DNA from: a virus
Virus record (IMG/VR): IMGVR_UViG_3300031754_000002
Span: 1-64,000 of that record
Length of the DNA stretch: 64,000 bases
Reading direction: 5' to 3' (one strand)
The translations under genes were made by a program, and so were the position numbers. The notes under the pieces are model-generated. The model searched no databases, was not told the DNA's origin, and saw only the letters and a list, made by a program, of their open reading frames with translations. Positions 36,891-53,704 of the stretch are shown here, piece by piece (within the stretch, counting starts at the first letter, position 1; each line of letters starts with the position of its first letter).

Positions 36891-39433
36891 TTAGATCGTC
36901 GGCGCGTACACCGATGATGTGAATTTGATCGTCGTGCCGATGCCAGCGCCGACAGGCGGGGCGAAGCCCGTCCCCGACGCAATTGCTAGCGACTGGCCGT
37001 AGCGCATCAAAAACGCGTAGTACGAAAAGACCTGGAAGCGAATCTCCAGTGTCCCGGACAGTACCTCGCTGAGTGCCCGCGTACGCAGCAGACCCTCAAA
37101 CAGCCATGCGTCGTCGAACTTCGCGGCCAGCGCAATGTCGGCTGTACCGGCGCCTGGCACTCCTTCTTTGTCTTTCGTCGGGATGTTCGCGTCAACATAA
37201 ACGTTGTGCGGGCCGAACGGCAGTGAAGCGACAAGCCCCTCTGCGGGATCTTCGCCAGCGCCGTACAGCGCGTCGATGTTGAACGGACCGAAGTCCGAAC
37301 GGTTAGCCAGCACACGGCCAGCCTTCCCTTCCAGACCATCCAGCTGTGTCCCGAACCAGTACCAACGGCGCGGGTTCGTGACCACATGCACGTTCTGCAC
37401 GCTGAACCGGGTTGTGGCGATCTGCGACACCATCGCCGCCATCGCCATGTTGAACGCCTGACCAACTGGGGCTGCTTCTTCCCAGTTGACTTCGTTTGCC
37501 TTCCAGTTCGACGCCGGGTACAGACCCTTAATCAAACCAGCGTTCAACGCACCAGTGTTCGTGCCCGGTGCTGTAAGAACTTCCCTGTCGAGCTGACGGT
37601 TGAAGTCAGCGATTAGATCCTCCATGATCGCCTCGTCCAGGTGGTACGGCGACTGCTCCAAAAGCTGGATAGCGATGTCGCTCTGGCCCGCCAACGTCTT
37701 CACGTTCGCGGTCACAGCTTCATCCGTCCAGTCCTTTTCTTCCACGGGCGCCGAGTCCGCTGTCTGCGGGCGAACCGCAGTCAGTTCCTTCAGCTTCGGC
37801 AGGTTGATGCTATCCGTGCCCTCCGGGAGTGCCATCCTACGACACAGGTCCGCAGTGATTCTACCGGCACGGAGACCCTTGACGAACTCTTTCATCCAAA
37901 GCGGCGGAACAAAGACGATGTGTTACCGCGCGAACCTGCTAGACTATTAGGGTGGCTCACCAACCGACTCCACTACAAGCCGCCTGGTTCGCCGGACTCT
38001 TTGAGGGCGAGGGTTGCATCTCTATCGAGAAGAATGGGGCCGTCGGCCTAACGGTCAAAATGACCGACCGGGATGTCATCGAGCGTGTCAACGCTCTCTT
38101 CCCCTGCAACAAGATCGGCGTAATCGATCCGAAGCCAATGCGACCTCACTACAAGCAGCCGAAGCGCGCTTATACTTGGCGCATACGTAAGCCGGATACG
38201 GTTCGGGACATACTCGAACTGATCCTGCCCTATCTCGGGGAGCGGCGCAGCACTAAAGCTATAGCCCTGCTAACTCACCTCGATACTCGGCCTGGTACCG
38301 GCGGCACCCACCGCGCGAGGACCCATTGCGCCAAGGGGCATGAATACAGCCCCGAGAACACCTATGTGAATCCCGCCAATGGCTACCGTAGCTGCCGCAC
38401 TTGCCAACGAGCATCGGCAGCAGCCCACCATCGCGCGCACCGTGACGAGCTGAATGCCCGTCAGCGGATACCAGGTGGTCGCGGTCCCTACAAAAAACGC
38501 TCTGTTTCCTAGTCTGTGTTTTTCCTAGTCTGTGTTTCGCGTGGGCTAGGTCATTTCTGCCTAGCTCTTGCGGTTTACCATCCCGCAAGACCGGACTATA
38601 TCTTCACCCTCAGATGTAGGGTGCAACGGTATCTAGTCTCTACGGCGCCCGCAGTACTTCGCGGTTCCCTCGGTATTAGCCGGTACTTCCCTTTTGGTGG
38701 CCTTCACCGATATCCCGTTGAGTTTGCCTGGCGCTTACGCGGCCAGGAGGGCCCTTGACCCGCCTTGTCCCGGCAACCGGTTAGGGTTGACGCGCTGCTC
38801 TTCCACTGCCTGGCGGACGAACGGATCGCCTTCCAGACCATGCGCACGGATACCCAACGGTCCTGACAGGTCACGGGTGATACCCCGCTCTGCCCGGTCC
38901 ATCTCCTCAAGCGTGCGAACTTCCTGTCGCTTGACGATCTCGGGGATCTCCACCCGCATCTCCGTCGTGTGTTTGTCGATGCGCTCCTCGCACGACGGGT
39001 CATTCAGGGTCGCCCGAACTCCAGGGAGATCCCTTGCTGCGAGATCACGGAAGAACGAGTGCCCGTTACCGCGTTCGTACGTCAGTGGCTCTTTGACCAC
39101 TTCGATACGCTCGCGTGCCTCCGGCCGTGAAGCCTCCTGCGCGTCTGCTTCCCTGCGCGCAAGCAGCTCCTCCTCGTCGATCCGGCGGTCTAGCGTTTTG
39201 ATCTCCGCCATCCGCTGGTCGTGTGCTGCCTCGAACGCGCCTTCGTCAAGCGCGAACTGTGAACGCTCATCCTCCGTAACCTCGTCGGCCTTGCGGCCCT
39301 CGAAGGTCTCGCGCTCTTTACGACGAGCAGTCAACGCTACTGCTGCAGCATCGACTAGATCCTTGCGTTTGTCCTGCAACTGCTCAAGGATCGTACGCTC
39401 CTCGGTCACTACCTCCTCTGTATCAGCGTCCAT
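36891..39433 (-). CDS. Second major capsid protein, split by a group I intron
   Basis: Exon 1 is 39433-38758 (ATG after AAAGGAGG) and exon 2 is 37915-36891. Splicing joins GQGG to FFVPPLWMKEF in frame and gives 566 residues. The N-terminal about 150 residues are a scaffold-like charged coil (delta-domain type). The rest is an HK97-fold capsid: RVNPNRLPGQGGF, KDWTDEAVTANVKTLAGQSD, LLEQSPYHLDEAIMEDLIAD, RWYWFGTQLDG. The same landmarks occur in the capsid protein at 44755-46059 (RVNPSRVTGGEFF, FTDAAVESW, QLEQSP), so they are paralogues. Without splicing exon 1 ends after 17 extra codons' worth of intron sequence, and only a truncated protein would be made. Confidence 0.85.
37937..37945 (+). promoter_or_regulatory. 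Leaderless extended -10 promoter (TGC TAGACT)
   Basis: TGC-TAGACT is followed by six bases (ATTAGG) and the GTG at 37952. It matches the geometry before the endonucleases at 21876 and 53745. It lies inside the 3' end of the group I intron, on the antisense strand. Confidence 0.6.
37952..38512 (+). CDS. LAGLIDADG-type homing endonuclease, antisense within the intron
   Basis: The GTG start at 37952 is six bases from a -10 element. The 186-aa protein begins with a LAGLIDADG-like helix (AAWFAGLFEGEGCISIEKNG) with the acidic Glu pair, and a second part (VRDILELILPYLGERRSTKA) typical of single-motif enzymes. The C-terminus has a Cys/His module (HCAKGHEYSPENTYVNPANG, then CRTC) seen in phage endonucleases. 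It is encoded opposite to the intron and capsid gene, so its expression is independent of capsid transcription. Confidence 0.85.
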   Translation: MAHQPTPLQAAWFAGLFEGEGCISIEKNGAVGLTVKMTDRDVIERVNALFPCNKIGVIDPKPMRPHYKQPKRAYTWRIRKPDTVRDILELILPYLGERRSTKAIALLTHLDTRPGTGGTHRARTHCAKGHEYSPENTYVNPANGYRSCRTCQRASAAAHHRAHRDELNARQRIPGGRGPYKKRSVS

Positions 39434-39506
39434 AAGACGCCTCCTTTGTGTGATGCCCACTGAGGGCTTTTACTGGCCCCCAGGCGATGCTCGACCAGCG
39501 CGAAGG

Positions 39507-44754: not shown

Positions 44755-46059
44755 CTAGTATTCCGCACTCACTTCTAGTCCACTGCCTTCCATATAGGCA
44801 AGGCCCGTCGGATAACGATGCAACGCTGCCGCATAGCCATGAAGCTGGAACCGTGCCTGCAACGTCCCGGACAGAACCTCCTTGAACACGCTCGTATGCT
44901 TCGGCGACTCGAACAACACACTGTCGGTCGGACGTGCGCACACAATCACGTCGCGGTTTTTCCCTGCCCCAAGAGTCGCAGGAATCGCATCTGACAAAAA
45001 TGTCGGCCAGCCAAGGATCGGGGGAGCGACAGCAGGCCGCGAGTCATCGAACGTGTACGCCACGGGAGGGAGCGCTTGATGCCCAGGAACCGCGAGAGGG
45101 AGGTTCTGCAAATCCTCAGCACCCCCGAGATAGCACCAGCGAGCGGTCCGCATCAACCACACCTCCGGCGGACAGTTCCGTGCATCCCCCAGCTTTGCCG
45201 CGACCTGCGACAGCGCAGCGAACATTTCATAGCCCTGTTTACCCGTGTACTGCACTACCGACACGCCACCCGCACCGGTAGTGAGATTCAGCACACCCGC
45301 GATTCGCTGGTTCGCTTTCCCCGTGCCAGTAAACAGCGACTCCTCAAGCCTGCGGTCATAGGACTCCAACAGGTCCTTCAACACCACTACATCCAAGGCG
45401 GCAGTAGCCGGTGATTGTTCAAGCTGCTGCATCGAACAATCCGCCTGCCCCGCGAACGTCTCACACCACGATTCAACCGCCGCATCCGTGAAGTCCCGTT
45501 CCGGCGCAGGCGTGACATCAGATACTCCCGGCGCGTGAGTGCCTTCCACGATACGCGGCAGGTTCACTTCAACCACGCCCGTCGGCAAATCGAAAGTAGG
45601 GATCATGCTCGCGTAAACCCGCTTGGCCCTCGCGGCAGTGGCAAAATACTCATTGGCCCACCACGGCACCCCAAAAAACTCGCCACCAGTGACACGGCTA
45701 GGGTTCACACGAAACTCCGCGCCCTCAAGCCTCCGCTGCTGCAACCTTTCACTCTCAACAGCAATCTCTTTGGCGTGACGCTCCAACCGTGCTCTCGCCC
45801 GCTGATCATTGCTGATCTGCGCACGCGCCACGTCCGCGAAGTAGCTTGCCTGCTCCTCGCGTGGAAGATGACCCTGAAAGCGTTCATACACCATCGGCTC
45901 ACGACGTATCTCAACGCGCGGTGAAAGCCGCTGTAGCTCAGCATGGTACGCACGAGCGCTAACAACCGCTTCCGCCTCGATACGTGCCCGGACTTCGGCC
46001 GGGATCGCAGCGCCACGGTCCTCCTCGACAGTCTCGTCAAGCTCTAGCGTGTCGCTCAT
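44755..46059 (-). CDS. Major capsid protein, HK97 fold (first copy)
   Basis: A 434-aa protein following the prohead protease with an overlapping start. The N-terminal about 100 residues are helical (ERLQQRRLEGAEFRVNPSRV), the usual delta-domain/N-arm. The HK97 core follows (FFGVPWWANEYFATAARAKR, DAAVESWCETFAGQADCSMQ, QLEQSPATAALDVVVLKDLL, MRTARWCYLG, FKEVLSGTLQARFQLHGYAA). The second copy at 36891-39433 has matching landmarks. Its stop is TAG, which matters for codon-use arguments. It is presumably the principal shell subunit. Confidence 0.9.
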   Translation of the reverse strand: MSDTLELDETVEEDRGAAIPAEVRARIEAEAVVSARAYHAELQRLSPRVEIRREPMVYERFQGHLPREEQASYFADVARAQISNDQRARARLERHAKEIAVESERLQQRRLEGAEFRVNPSRVTGGEFFGVPWWANEYFATAARAKRVYASMIPTFDLPTGVVEVNLPRIVEGTHAPGVSDVTPAPERDFTDAAVESWCETFAGQADCSMQQLEQSPATAALDVVVLKDLLESYDRRLEESLFTGTGKANQRIAGVLNLTTGAGGVSVVQYTGKQGYEMFAALSQVAAKLGDARNCPPEVWLMRTARWCYLGGAEDLQNLPLAVPGHQALPPVAYTFDDSRPAVAPPILGWPTFLSDAIPATLGAGKNRDVIVCARPTDSVLFESPKHTSVFKEVLSGTLQARFQLHGYAAALHRYPTGLAYMEGSGLEVSAEY

Positions 46060-47837
46060 CGCGCCAACCTCAACATGTCCAGTTCCTGCTCAGCACGACG
46101 CGTCAGATCAACCACAACAGCCGAGCGACCGTTCGTCTCCTCACTGTCATCAGCACCCTGAGCCTCATCAGCCTTACCGAGCGCGGTAGCAGCCGCTTCC
46201 AAAGCCTTCGTGACCTTCTCGTCGGACGGACTGTCCATATCACCGGTCTGTTCGGCTAGCGCCTTAGCAACAGCCTCTTTCGCCTCGTCGATCGAGTCAG
46301 ACACACCCTCGTCAGCATCGTCTCTGGCCTCAGCCTCATACTCGGCGCGTAGCTCACGCACGCGCTCCGTGTACTCCTCGCCCTTCGCCGCTGCCTTCGC
46401 TTCCAGGCCCTCCCAGAACGATGCAGGCTCAGACTCCGACGGCAGTAGACCCGAAAGCTCGTCTCCGGCCTCCGCGAGCTTATCCACCAAGCCCTGAATC
46501 AACTGTTCCTTCGCAGACGACAACGCTTTACCCGCACGGAACTCATACTCGCCATCCGTTGAGCGAATACTTGTCGTGCTACCCGTTGACGGTGATGCGC
46601 CGAATGTGACGGCACTCACATCTCCGCCGTGCAAGGTCACACCCTTCACTTTGCGGTCAGTTAGCTCATCATTCCAGTCATCATCGGTGCAGCGAAACGC
46701 GAAACTCATCTGATCCACGAGCCCGCGCTCCATCTTCAGCTTTAGCCTCTGTGCATCCACGTCCCGCGGGTCAAAGGTCGCGTTCACGAGCAGCCCCTTG
46801 GATGTTTCCTCCAGCCTCAACGTGCCCGGAATGTCCGAGTCCTTACGTTCCGTTCGTGCAAGCGGCAAGCCTTCGTGTTCCACTCGAAACACGCAATCCG
46901 GTTCCTCTTTCAATGTGCGGCGAAAACTGCCACGGGAAATAGTCTCCGTGAAGCCACCAACCGAATATGGCACATCAAAAAGTGACGCATATCCTTCAAA
47001 ATGGAACATGCCATCATCGTCTTCGCTGCCGTCCCGGAACTCACATTCACGCACCGAGAACTGCCGGTGCTCCAAGCCCTTCGCGTTACGCAGATTTTCG
47101 ACCCGCCGCTTACGCAGCTCAAACTGTGCGGCGCTACGCGAATCCTTCTCGATTTCGCCCGTGCCATCACAATCCGGGCACTCCTTACCCTTCACCTTGC
47201 CACTACCATCACACGTCGGGCACGTTTCCATGTCCTCAGTGTCGTTTTCCACCGCACGCCGACCATTCGCCTCCGGCGCATATGTGGTGACACGCCGCAC
47301 CTTCTTAGGCGTCCCCAACGTCACATTATCATCGGCGTCCACCATGTACGTCACCTGCCACAACACGTCTTCGCGTTCATACACCGCCCACTCGTCAGTC
47401 ATGTCCGAGATGTAGACGTAGGAATATTCGCCCTTTTTAGGCTTCGGGAGCGATTCGACTATCGCCTGCTGCACCATCTGGCGACGGTCATTGTAGGTTT
47501 CGCGCTCCTCAAGCGTTGACCACACCGACTTTTCTTCTTTCAGCGATCCATCACTAGACCAATTGTCGGGTATGAGCGAACTGAGTTTCAGCGCCTTGGC
47601 ACGCTTAATGATGTGCGCACGGATTGAGTCATGGCTCGCATCTCCACGTCCGACCGCTTTGATCGCTTTTTTTAGGTCGTCTTCGTCCCCGATCGGGTAC
47701 GAGCCATCGGCCATTGCTTCGCCTTTTTTTGCCATTTCGTCACGGTCGGCCTTCTTGTACTTCGCGCGCCACTCCCGCTCAAGTGACCGTTCGACCGTCA
47801 CGATGTCAGTCTCGACCGGCTCAGTCTCAACACCCAT
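46056..47837 (-). CDS. Prohead protease with N-terminal DUF6582-like and zinc-finger domains and scaffold tail
   Basis: ATG 47837 follows AAGGAGG. Residues about 20-95 (ADGSYPIGDEDDLKKAIKAV, IRAHIIKRAKALKL) resemble the DUF6582-type module found in phage proteases. Residues about 190-220 have two CxxCxGxG motifs (CPTCDGSGKV, CPDCDGTGEI) as in DnaJ zinc fingers. The HK97 protease core follows (RQFSVRECEFRDG, FEGYASLFDVPYSVGGFTET, FRVEHEGLPLARTE, DQMSFAFRC). The last about 170 residues are acidic coils that probably act as scaffold. Such a zinc-finger insert before the protease is unusual. It ends overlapping the capsid gene by 4 bp. Confidence 0.85.
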   Translation of the reverse strand: MGVETEPVETDIVTVERSLEREWRAKYKKADRDEMAKKGEAMADGSYPIGDEDDLKKAIKAVGRGDASHDSIRAHIIKRAKALKLSSLIPDNWSSDGSLKEEKSVWSTLEERETYNDRRQMVQQAIVESLPKPKKGEYSYVYISDMTDEWAVYEREDVLWQVTYMVDADDNVTLGTPKKVRRVTTYAPEANGRRAVENDTEDMETCPTCDGSGKVKGKECPDCDGTGEIEKDSRSAAQFELRKRRVENLRNAKGLEHRQFSVRECEFRDGSEDDDGMFHFEGYASLFDVPYSVGGFTETISRGSFRRTLKEEPDCVFRVEHEGLPLARTERKDSDIPGTLRLEETSKGLLVNATFDPRDVDAQRLKLKMERGLVDQMSFAFRCTDDDWNDELTDRKVKGVTLHGGDVSAVTFGASPSTGSTTSIRSTDGEYEFRAGKALSSAKEQLIQGLVDKLAEAGDELSGLLPSESEPASFWEGLEAKAAAKGEEYTERVRELRAEYEAEARDDADEGVSDSIDEAKEAVAKALAEQTGDMDSPSDEKVTKALEAAATALGKADEAQGADDSEETNGRSAVVVDLTRRAEQELDMLRLAR

Positions 47838-51225: not shown

Positions 51226-53704
51226 CTACTTAGCTGGCGTCAACACCTTCCCGTCACCGTTCGATGACGGCACAGCCGGCTCCGGTGCATACTTCGCTTC
51301 GATGGCCTGTTCCGCTTCCGCCATCACTTTTTCAAGTAGCGTCGTGTTAATCGGCGAGTTCAGTTTATCGCCGTCCGGCAACGCCGGCAGGTCGAACAGT
51401 GCTCGTGCGTCGTTCGGCGTGAAGTAGCCTCCGAGCGTCCCGAGCGAGCCAGCGTTCGCGCGCTCAAGGGTATCCCCGCGCAGACGGTGGCTCATGTCGA
51501 TCGCCACGAACTGCCCTGGCGGGTGGATCGCGGTCATCGCGGCTTCGTAACGGCCCGTATAGTCCTGCAACGTGTTTTTCGTAAAGCCTAGCTCCTGCTG
51601 CTCGATCCCCCGATAATCGACCCCACGAGTTGTGAACAACCACGCCTTCGGCTAGGAAGGAGTGATTACCCGCAACCGCGAGGTCATAGACTGGCACCTC
51701 AACTTTCGAGCGGTCGATTTTGATTACACGCTGCAAGATAACGTCGTCGTACTCCCAACCGTAGCTCGGGCTCTGCCGGCGACCATCCCAGCCGCCAACG
51801 TTGCCGCCCGTCCATCCCTCGTCATAGCGCCCTAGTCGTATTGCTGGTCGAGTGACGAGTCGCGCCCGCTTACGCGCGCTATTGGCACCGATACGACTAT
51901 TGAAGAACACAGTCGAGAGAGCAAGTTGATACTTCTGGCCCGACCGCACACGACGGCCAGCAATCACCGCGTCACACGGCGGTCGTCCCAGGTGGACTCG
52001 TCCAGCCGGAACACCCACTTGGATGCACAAGTGGCGGATATCCTCTAGCAGGAGTCGGTTACACGATGCGAAGCTAATCGCCCCTGCCTTGTTGACACTC
52101 CCGTCTGCGTCGAGATATCCGCGCAGGAATGCTAGCTGTAGCTCCGGCTTGAGTTCGTACACCCAACCCGGCACTCGCTTTGTATGCGCGTCGCCCGTGA
52201 ACCCGCAGTCGTCAAGCAGTTCGCGTGCGTCGGCCGACGAGAAGCGCGTCCTCGTGCCTGTGCGTATCCCCCGATTGGGTGCGTTGTCTGTGTAGGGTTC
52301 TACGCCGAACTCATCGCGTACGACCTGGCAGTAGTGCTCCATGTGATCGGGCTTGCTCTCGTGGGCGAGCTCGAAACGGTTTTTGTCCTGTGAGCCATCG
52401 CCCGTGTAGAGTCCACAAAGCTCCATCGCGCCGACCGTAAGCTGGCGCCCATTGGGCGCATACTCATCACCCTGGTCCCCGAAGCCATGAGGCACGAGCA
52501 GGTAATCCTTGATCGTAACCTCATCGGCGCGAACCCAAACCGTTTCCCAGGCGCAGTCGCCACTCGCACGGCCCTCTGGCCGTCCAAAGTATCGGCGCAC
52601 TGGCAAAACATGGTTTGCCGTCAACTTGACAGTGCGAGCCGATGTCTGGATGCTCAGGAGAGGCTTGTGGCCGGTTAGTTGCCGCGAGACGACCGTTGCA
52701 GGCTCGATCCCGCGCTCACCGAGCGACCAAACCTCCTCGCCAGCCTGAATCTCGCAGATTGGCCGTGGTCCCTGCGTCGTGAACACCTGCGCTTCGGCGG
52801 GCAGACACGAAACTCGTTCAGTCAGTCCGATCATGTGCGGGGGGCACCGAAAGATCGTGGATGCGATCTCTGATGCCGACCATTGAAGCGATTCTAGGAA
52901 TTGGGAGTCCTGCGGGGATATCGTGATCGGCTTGATTTCCGTGTCACCCGTCACGACGGCTGGAAGATGCGAGCTATTCAAGCCCTGGTGCGCCGCCATA
53001 AACGAGCGAACCATTTTCTTTGTCTGGTCCGGCGACAGGTCACCCTTGACCTGGATCACGATCGACGGGTTCGCGCTATTGCGGAAGTACTGTAGCCCAT
53101 AGGTGGACTGCGAAAGCGACTTGCTAAACGCCAAGCGCTGCGCCTCAATTGGGTTAATGCCTTCCAACATTCCCGGAAGCCAGAGGAGCTTGACGTGAAA
53201 TACATCTTGCCTTGGCACAACTTTATTGAAGAACCGATACTGGAGTTCTCCTTTACGCAGCCGTTCGACATGCGCACTGTCGGCCGGTATGGGCTTGATC
53301 TGCGTCGGGTAGAGCTGCTTGTCGCGGCTGATGATCTGGCCGAAGAAGTTGCCACGAATGGCGAGGGACGCGACGAACTGGACGATCCAGTCGAAAAGCC
53401 CAATCTCGCAGTATGGTTCGGTGAGGAGGGGAGAGGGTTTTAGCTCTTTCGCCTTTCGTAGTACCCTGTTGTTGAGCAGCAGAACGGGGGAGTTCGCTAC
53501 CGAGCTAGAAAGAAGGTTAGCGCATGAGTAGACGGTCGCTATCGAGAGCGCCGCCTCTTGGCTTACACCCATGCCTCCAGACCCACCGAATCCCCCGATT
53601 TCTGAGTTCGTAGGCTACGGGGGAACGCTGTTGCCCCATTCGGTGCCCGGCCGCGCCGCGCGTGCGTCCATTGTCTGTGACAGCGCGCGAAGGATCAACG
53701 ACAT
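51226..53704 (-). CDS. Portal protein with intein, an in-frame stop and a frameshift
   Basis: The start ATG 53704 (MSLILRALSQTMDARAARPG) reads 29 codons to an in-frame TAG at 53615-53617, then continues PTNSEIGGFGGSGGMGVSQ. The portal body has family hallmarks (AALSIATVYSCANLLSSSVA, FDWIVQFVASLAIRGNFFGQ, DVFHVKLLWLPG, FRCPPHMIGLTERV). An intein interrupts it after TERVS. After the intein the frame is off by one base near a run of five Gs (51607-51611); the correct C-terminus, GIEQQELGFTKNTLQDYTGR, lies one frame over and runs to 51226. Whether it is functional depends on whether the TAG and the extra base are real. Confidence 0.8.
51629..52807 (-). mobile_element. LAGLIDADG intein in the portal (393 aa)
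   Basis: It begins at Cys (CLPAEAQVFTTQGPRPICEI) after TERVS and ends VHN before Ser of the C-extein. Splicing block A (Cys1), block B (the conserved THxxH-like region is here LTANHVLPV), block F (VYDLAVAGNHSFLAEGVVVH) and block G (HN|S) are all present. The endonuclease motifs are LCGLYTGDGSQDK and FLRGYLDADGSVNKAG, the two LAGLIDADG helices with their acidic residues. The insertion point in the portal lies next to a conserved pore-region motif, where inteins commonly reside. Confidence 0.9.

Follow-up and report, generated by a model that had tools for sequence, protein, structure and literature searches.

Organization of the capsid locus

The 64,000-nucleotide stretch of viral DNA analysed here (the window) is included in a 105,858-bp IMG/VR virus record. 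Its minus strand carries portal and protease genes, two capsid genes and a tail-fibre-like gene, and one of the capsid genes is interrupted by a group I intron that holds a homing endonuclease gene (HEG) on the opposite strand. A previous sequence-only reading had proposed this intron, and its coordinates, splice sites, P7, P8 and the U-G pair of P1 all proved correct to the base. The features are listed by position in the window.

36891-37915, minus strand: capsid exon 2, the HK97-type major capsid fold region, beginning UCUUUG
37916-38757, minus strand: group I intron of 842 nt that interrupts a Phe codon behind its first base (phase 1)
37916-37926, minus strand: conserved 3' terminal element GUAACA-N-G, GUAACACAUCG, with the terminal guanosine last
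37937-37945, plus strand: predicted extended -10, TGCTAGACT, six bases before the GTG start at 37952
37952-38512, plus strand: antisense homing endonuclease gene, 186 aa, with a single LAGLIDADG motif, WFAGLFEGEG
38545-38589, minus strand: P9 and P9.1 hairpins, with the HEG cassette following P9.1 and preceding the conserved 3' terminal element
38618-38623 and 38605-38610, minus strand: P8 of the catalytic core, CACCCT/AGGGTG (CACCCU/AGGGUG)
38634-38638 and 38594-38598, minus strand: P7, GACTA/TAGTC (GACUA/UAGUC), from the core R and S segments, enclosing P8
38746-38764, minus strand: P1, exon GGCGGGU (38758-38764) with internal guide GCCCUCC (IGS, 38746-38752), U.G at the splice site
38758-39460, minus strand: capsid exon 1, including an N-terminal delta-like region, 3' end GGCGGGU, assigned from the joined-exon translation
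44755-46089, minus strand: second HK97-type capsid paralogue, uninterrupted (phrog_2263, E 2.2e-20)

Exon 2 matches Pfam Phage_capsid (E 1.7e-8) and the major head protein phrog_2263 (E 2.3e-26). Joined to exon 1, for which the open frame offers GTG at 39460 or an ATG ten codons later as start codon, it forms a 576-codon open frame running through GQGGFFVPPLW, NPNRLPGQGGFFVPPLWMKEF. Because the uninterrupted paralogue is also present, the earlier description of the split gene as a second capsid gene is fair wording; two related viral contigs, L024 and L025, likewise have two capsid paralogues. At 45678 the window's uninterrupted paralogue reads VTGGEFFGVPWW, versus GQGGYFSPPLW and GQGGYFAPPLW in the first paralogues of L024 and L025, so its homing-site-like sequence has diverged. 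The DNA at 45678 differs from the intron insertion site, and we considered that this sequence might have diverged to escape cleavage. The portal gene (51464-53614, minus strand) contains an intein (Intein_splicing PF14890, E 9.4e-12, and LAGLIDADG_3, E 7.3e-12), a second splicing parasite within the same structural region as the capsid intron; the stretch after the intein shows no obvious continuation of the portal protein and may be frameshifted.

Identification and structure of the intron

Searching the region against phages with megablast returned no matches, and Rfam at its gathering threshold reported no group I match there. The gathering score of the general model RF00028 is 50 bits, a working threshold and not a biological one, and at a lower threshold the model aligned to 38567-38769 with 31.8 bits (E 4.8e-6 when 1 kb was searched). 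An ordinary annotation run would therefore miss the intron. Related introns also score poorly with RF00028 (44.2 bits for L003 and 39.0 for intron 2 of L004, both below 50), with intron 1 of L004 passing at 53.9. Since these relatives fall short too, and a family model that includes the experimentally spliced intron of mycobacteriophage LittleE gives 120 bits, we attribute the shortfall to the limits of the general model.

This family covariance model was built from the intron cores of six relatives, with the window left out of the alignment and the group I helices drawn on the LittleE row. It matched the window once, at 38538-38770, with 120.1 bits and an E value of 8.5e-40; the covariance search that had been suggested as a check thus bears out the intron, although RF00028 stays below its cut-off. 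Among the six relatives, 92.4% of cells were paired, and 27 pairs had changed on both sides versus 13.5 in shuffles, a number matched or exceeded in none of 500 shuffles. The signal is present in P1, P2, P3, P8 and other helices and was lost once pairing partners were slid by one base.

The window's copy has the P3-P8 catalytic core of a group I intron, with conserved P7 (R/S) and P4. Between P7 and P3 there is no visible P7.1/P7.2 insertion, a point against subgroup IA. P1 comprises seven positions with one internal mismatch, and P10 has 4 bp. Exon 1 ends in the U that forms the U.G wobble in P1, and the last base of the intron is the G at 37916. With its helices in place, a family-model match and joined exons that match intronless homologues, the second capsid gene does contain the group I intron first read from its sequence.

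The splice junction and intronless alleles

The exact junction is set by natural alleles of the same site. L024 and L025 lack the intron and read GQGGFFVPPLW, as do the joined exons, with 79% and 78% identity to the window across exon 2 and identical junction codons, GGG TTC. The empty site therefore occurs in nature and fits exactly. The exons had been predicted to join in frame to give FFVPPLW, and both contigs match them exactly at the junction. Capsid homologues aligning without a gap at this point had also been named as evidence that would count against an intron; L024 and L025 are such homologues, yet they are intronless alleles and support it.

In LittleE, L003, L027, L032 and L034 the intron lies between GGT and TAC, in phase 0. 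The window's intron is one base off, in phase 1, because the codon here is GGG, so that the U with which exon 1 must end comes from the first position of the following codon. In most relatives P1 and P10 match each intron's own exon pair.

An antisense LAGLIDADG endonuclease

The plus-strand gene within the intron was expected to encode a homing endonuclease, and Pfam, PDB profile searches and the predicted fold all place its product among LAGLIDADG proteins. Pfam LAGLIDADG_3 (PF14528) scored 25.4 bits over a cut-off of 22.5, phrog_5046 matched at E 3.8e-29, and the PDB profile matches were I-AniI, I-HjeMI, I-CvuI and other LAGLIDADG proteins. An AlphaFold model (pLDDT 88) found I-CvuI and I-CreI in Foldseek, with E about 1e-5, probability 1.00 and TM-scores of 0.4-0.56. 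These LAGLIDADG homodimers are the best fold matches of the model, at about 10-21% identity over the matched part, and the match stops before the zinc-finger-like tail. The acidic residues and motif of the LAGLIDADG domain are invariant in all 22 aligned relatives. The zinc-finger-like C-terminal region, HCxxGHEYxxxNT..CRTC (HCAKGHEYSPENT...CRTC), also occurs in the phage 'HNH' proteins phrog_826 and phrog_1492. Its presence there is probably why databases use the label HNH; the N-terminal domain belongs to the LAGLIDADG type. The gene is the sole copy in the whole record. A direct repeat, TTCCTAGTCTGTGTTT, occurs twice with slight overlap at 38506-38541, at the endonuclease stop codon and between the endonuclease and P9.1.

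The best database match of the endonuclease is LittleE gp14 (58.9% identical), which is encoded on the strand opposite the capsid gene gp13, whose annotation notes a putative group I intron. The arrangement had implicitly been presented as new; it is already known in kind, since gp13 with its antisense gp14 was published in 2013 by Pope et al. (PMC3706429). Splicing in LittleE was shown by RT-PCR and protein N-terminal sequencing, and its virion capsid protein co-migrates with that of intronless Omega, from which those authors infer very efficient splicing (PMC3706429).

A predicted promoter before the endonuclease start

The GTG at 37952 is the first ATG, GTG or TTG after an in-frame stop 12 nt upstream, and no spaced Shine-Dalgarno sequence precedes it. 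The -35 position matching the predicted extended -10 (about 37917-37922) overlaps the intron/exon 2 junction. TANNNT hexamers 5-7 nt before the start occur in six of eight antisense HEGs versus one of 73 control starts, the controls being LittleE genes (Fisher 5.9e-7; 4.9e-5 after collapsing close pairs), a contrast inflated because the range was picked after some sequences had been seen and the controls lie mostly inside operons. Within the HEG upstream regions TANNNT is concentrated at 5-7 nt from the start (6.6e-7), and in L027 a TTGACA lies 17 bp upstream of TAGACT. An inverted repeat, GTACCAC-AAAG-GTGGTAC, precedes the antisense HEG start of L003 (3936-3991).

The principal -10 motif in Mycobacterium tuberculosis is TANNNT, and roughly one in four of its genes that have a primary start site lack a leader (PMC3898074). 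Leaderless genes as mapped in mycobacteria have a TANNNT centred 7-12 bp before a transcription start that is at most 5 bp from the start codon; the window's hexamer would lie at a fitting distance if transcription began at or near the GTG. The host of this phage may be another organism, and we treat the parallel as an analogy. Together with the start codon context, these comparisons support the sequence-only reading in predicting a leaderless promoter of the endonuclease's own.

A family of introns around one capsid site

Nine HEG-bearing introns of this family, on eight partly related contigs, carry the HEG eight times in antisense and once in sense (L002). The antisense set consists of the window, LittleE, L003, L027, L032 (with a near-identical contig, L031), L034 and two introns in L004. 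Every HEG found that shares at least 43% identity with the window's over most of its length lies inside a capsid-gene intron. Eight of the nine introns are inserted within 9 nt of one another (0 nt for LittleE, L003, L027, L032 and L034; +1 for the window; +8 for L004 intron 1; +9 for L002), and L004 intron 2 lies elsewhere in the gene. Its core fit to the family model and an insertion site 1 nt from that of LittleE place the window's copy in this LittleE-type family.

GTAACA-N-G forms the 3' end of all nine compared introns and of most related HEG-less ones. A pattern scan for the S segment combined with the family model yielded several dozen related introns in 63 viral contigs, and in most tabulated relatives GTAACA-N-G follows about 14-37 nt past P9.1, so that these introns are compact and HEG-less. 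In L128 the copy at the shared capsid site is 271 nt long and lacks a HEG. To judge from these sequences, the HEG looks like a cassette placed after P9.1, ahead of the 3' end, in a small intron that was already complete without it.

The sense HEG of L002 (3746-4525), the only one of its clade, has its TAA stop codon within the conserved GTAACA element. The LAGLIDADG gene tree has few supported branches, and it did not separate inversion from independent capture for this copy. Distantly related LAGLIDADG genes in L117, L148 and L149 are in sense, just upstream of the S segment. Distant HEGs in L035-L045 (mostly 31-41% identical) were kept out of the orientation counts because no group I core was detectable around them. 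L004 (2951-5140) has two group I introns in one capsid gene with an antisense HEG in each, the first HEG being a fusion of two LAGLIDADG domains. Family introns are dense in L150 (five), L155 (three) and L173 (three), within a few kb each.

Comparison with known systems

LittleE and the window share the host gene, an insertion point at most 1 nt apart, a homologous core, the GTAACA-N-G 3' end and a homologous LAGLIDADG HEG on the opposite strand. They differ in phase (GGGU|UC in the window, GGU|UAC in LittleE), in the shorter P8 region of the window's intron and in the predicted -10, which lies 10 nt before the LittleE ATG and 6 before the window's GTG. We know of no assay of LittleE gp14. The HEGs of T4 introns are, as far as is known, read in sense. 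Like the intron described here, the T4 td, nrdB and nrdD introns with I-TevI, II and III are phage group I introns with the HEG under its own promoter, but their enzymes are of the GIY-YIG or HNH type, and it is the timing of promoters and hairpins that hide the RBS, and not the strand, that separate enzyme expression from that of the host gene (PMC2988022). An intron in the minor tail gene of BAKA and Optimus shares a 156-bp segment with the 5' part of the LittleE intron at 98% identity, but is 265 bp long, has no HEG and occupies a different host gene (PMC3706429). Antisense HEGs are also known from nuclear rDNA introns (PMC9548176). Those of the Didymium Dsq.L2066 type also have an antisense HEG in the P9 region and, as here, sense and antisense versions occur at one insertion site; they differ in being eukaryotic, with a His-Cys box enzyme and a HEG split by a spliceosomal intron (PMC9548176).

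Proposed mechanism and alternatives

The best explanation, and one we hold with high confidence, is a mobile LittleE-type group I intron in the capsid gene with a separately expressed endonuclease. The minus-strand structural transcript would fold into the ribozyme and excise the intron through P1/P10 and the terminal G, restoring a continuous capsid reading frame. Plus-strand transcription of the endonuclease would probably begin at a promoter of its own close to the 3' end of the intron and give an mRNA with no leader or almost none. Where a co-infecting phage has the intronless capsid allele, the enzyme would cleave it at the conserved GQGG/FFVPPLW codons, and repair of the cut allele would copy the intron in. 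Three points count against this explanation: the RF00028 score below its cut-off, the mismatch in P1, and a splice site 1 nt off those of LittleE and L003. That the insertion is instead a broken capsid gene with a free-standing intergenic endonuclease and no intron has virtually no likelihood; only the missing Rfam gathering match speaks for it, and we rejected it in view of the full set of group I helices, the family-model E value, the exact empty-site alignment and the spliced LittleE homologue.

Capsid and endonuclease expression are uncoupled by construction, as had been claimed, because the genes lie on opposite strands. We think it improbable that the intron splices while the endonuclease is unexpressed or inactive, a passenger kept by chance or for an RNA role of its strand. 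The sense HEG of L002, which indicates that antisense orientation is not essential, would suit such a passenger, but all nine introns keep the ORF intact, the relatives' copies share 43-60% identity with that of the window and retain the LAGLIDADG and cysteine motifs, and a -10-like box precedes HEG start codons far more often than those of control genes. Antagonism, which the sequence-only reading had raised and in which transcribing the endonuclease from the other strand would disturb capsid expression or splicing, seems to us no likelier. The transcription units are opposite and overlapping by construction, and for antisense HEGs of nuclear rDNA introns such interference has been named as a possible difficulty (PMC9548176). 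Yet the HEG lies downstream of P9.1 and outside the catalytic core, the co-migration of the LittleE capsid with that of Omega points to very efficient splicing (PMC3706429), and a split between early and late timing would avoid a clash; no observation demands antagonism.

Reversed orientation would keep translation from colliding with ribozyme folding, since ribosomes making the endonuclease would never be on the splicing RNA. A stronger proposal is that the orientation is a selected regulatory design and not an accident, with the HEG held in antisense and its leaderless promoter placed over the intron/exon 2 junction. Because the upstream half of the predicted promoter overlaps this junction, half of the enzyme's homing site would lie over its promoter. 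We regard this proposal as speculative and rather doubtful. If it is true, expression would be independent of the late structural transcript and possibly self-repressed, and translation would never cross a folding ribozyme.

Implications

Since the general Rfam model misses part of the LittleE-type phage introns at its standard threshold, annotation may wrongly present the capsid genes of such phages as split or truncated. What is new here is the recurrence of these introns around one capsid site in several phages, together with a conserved promoter-like motif before the HEG start. LittleE, previously a single published oddity, thereby joins a family whose introns at or near one capsid site may carry the HEG in sense or in antisense, be doubled, or have no HEG. 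With such a family, the expression of an intron endonuclease without disturbed ribozyme folding becomes directly testable.
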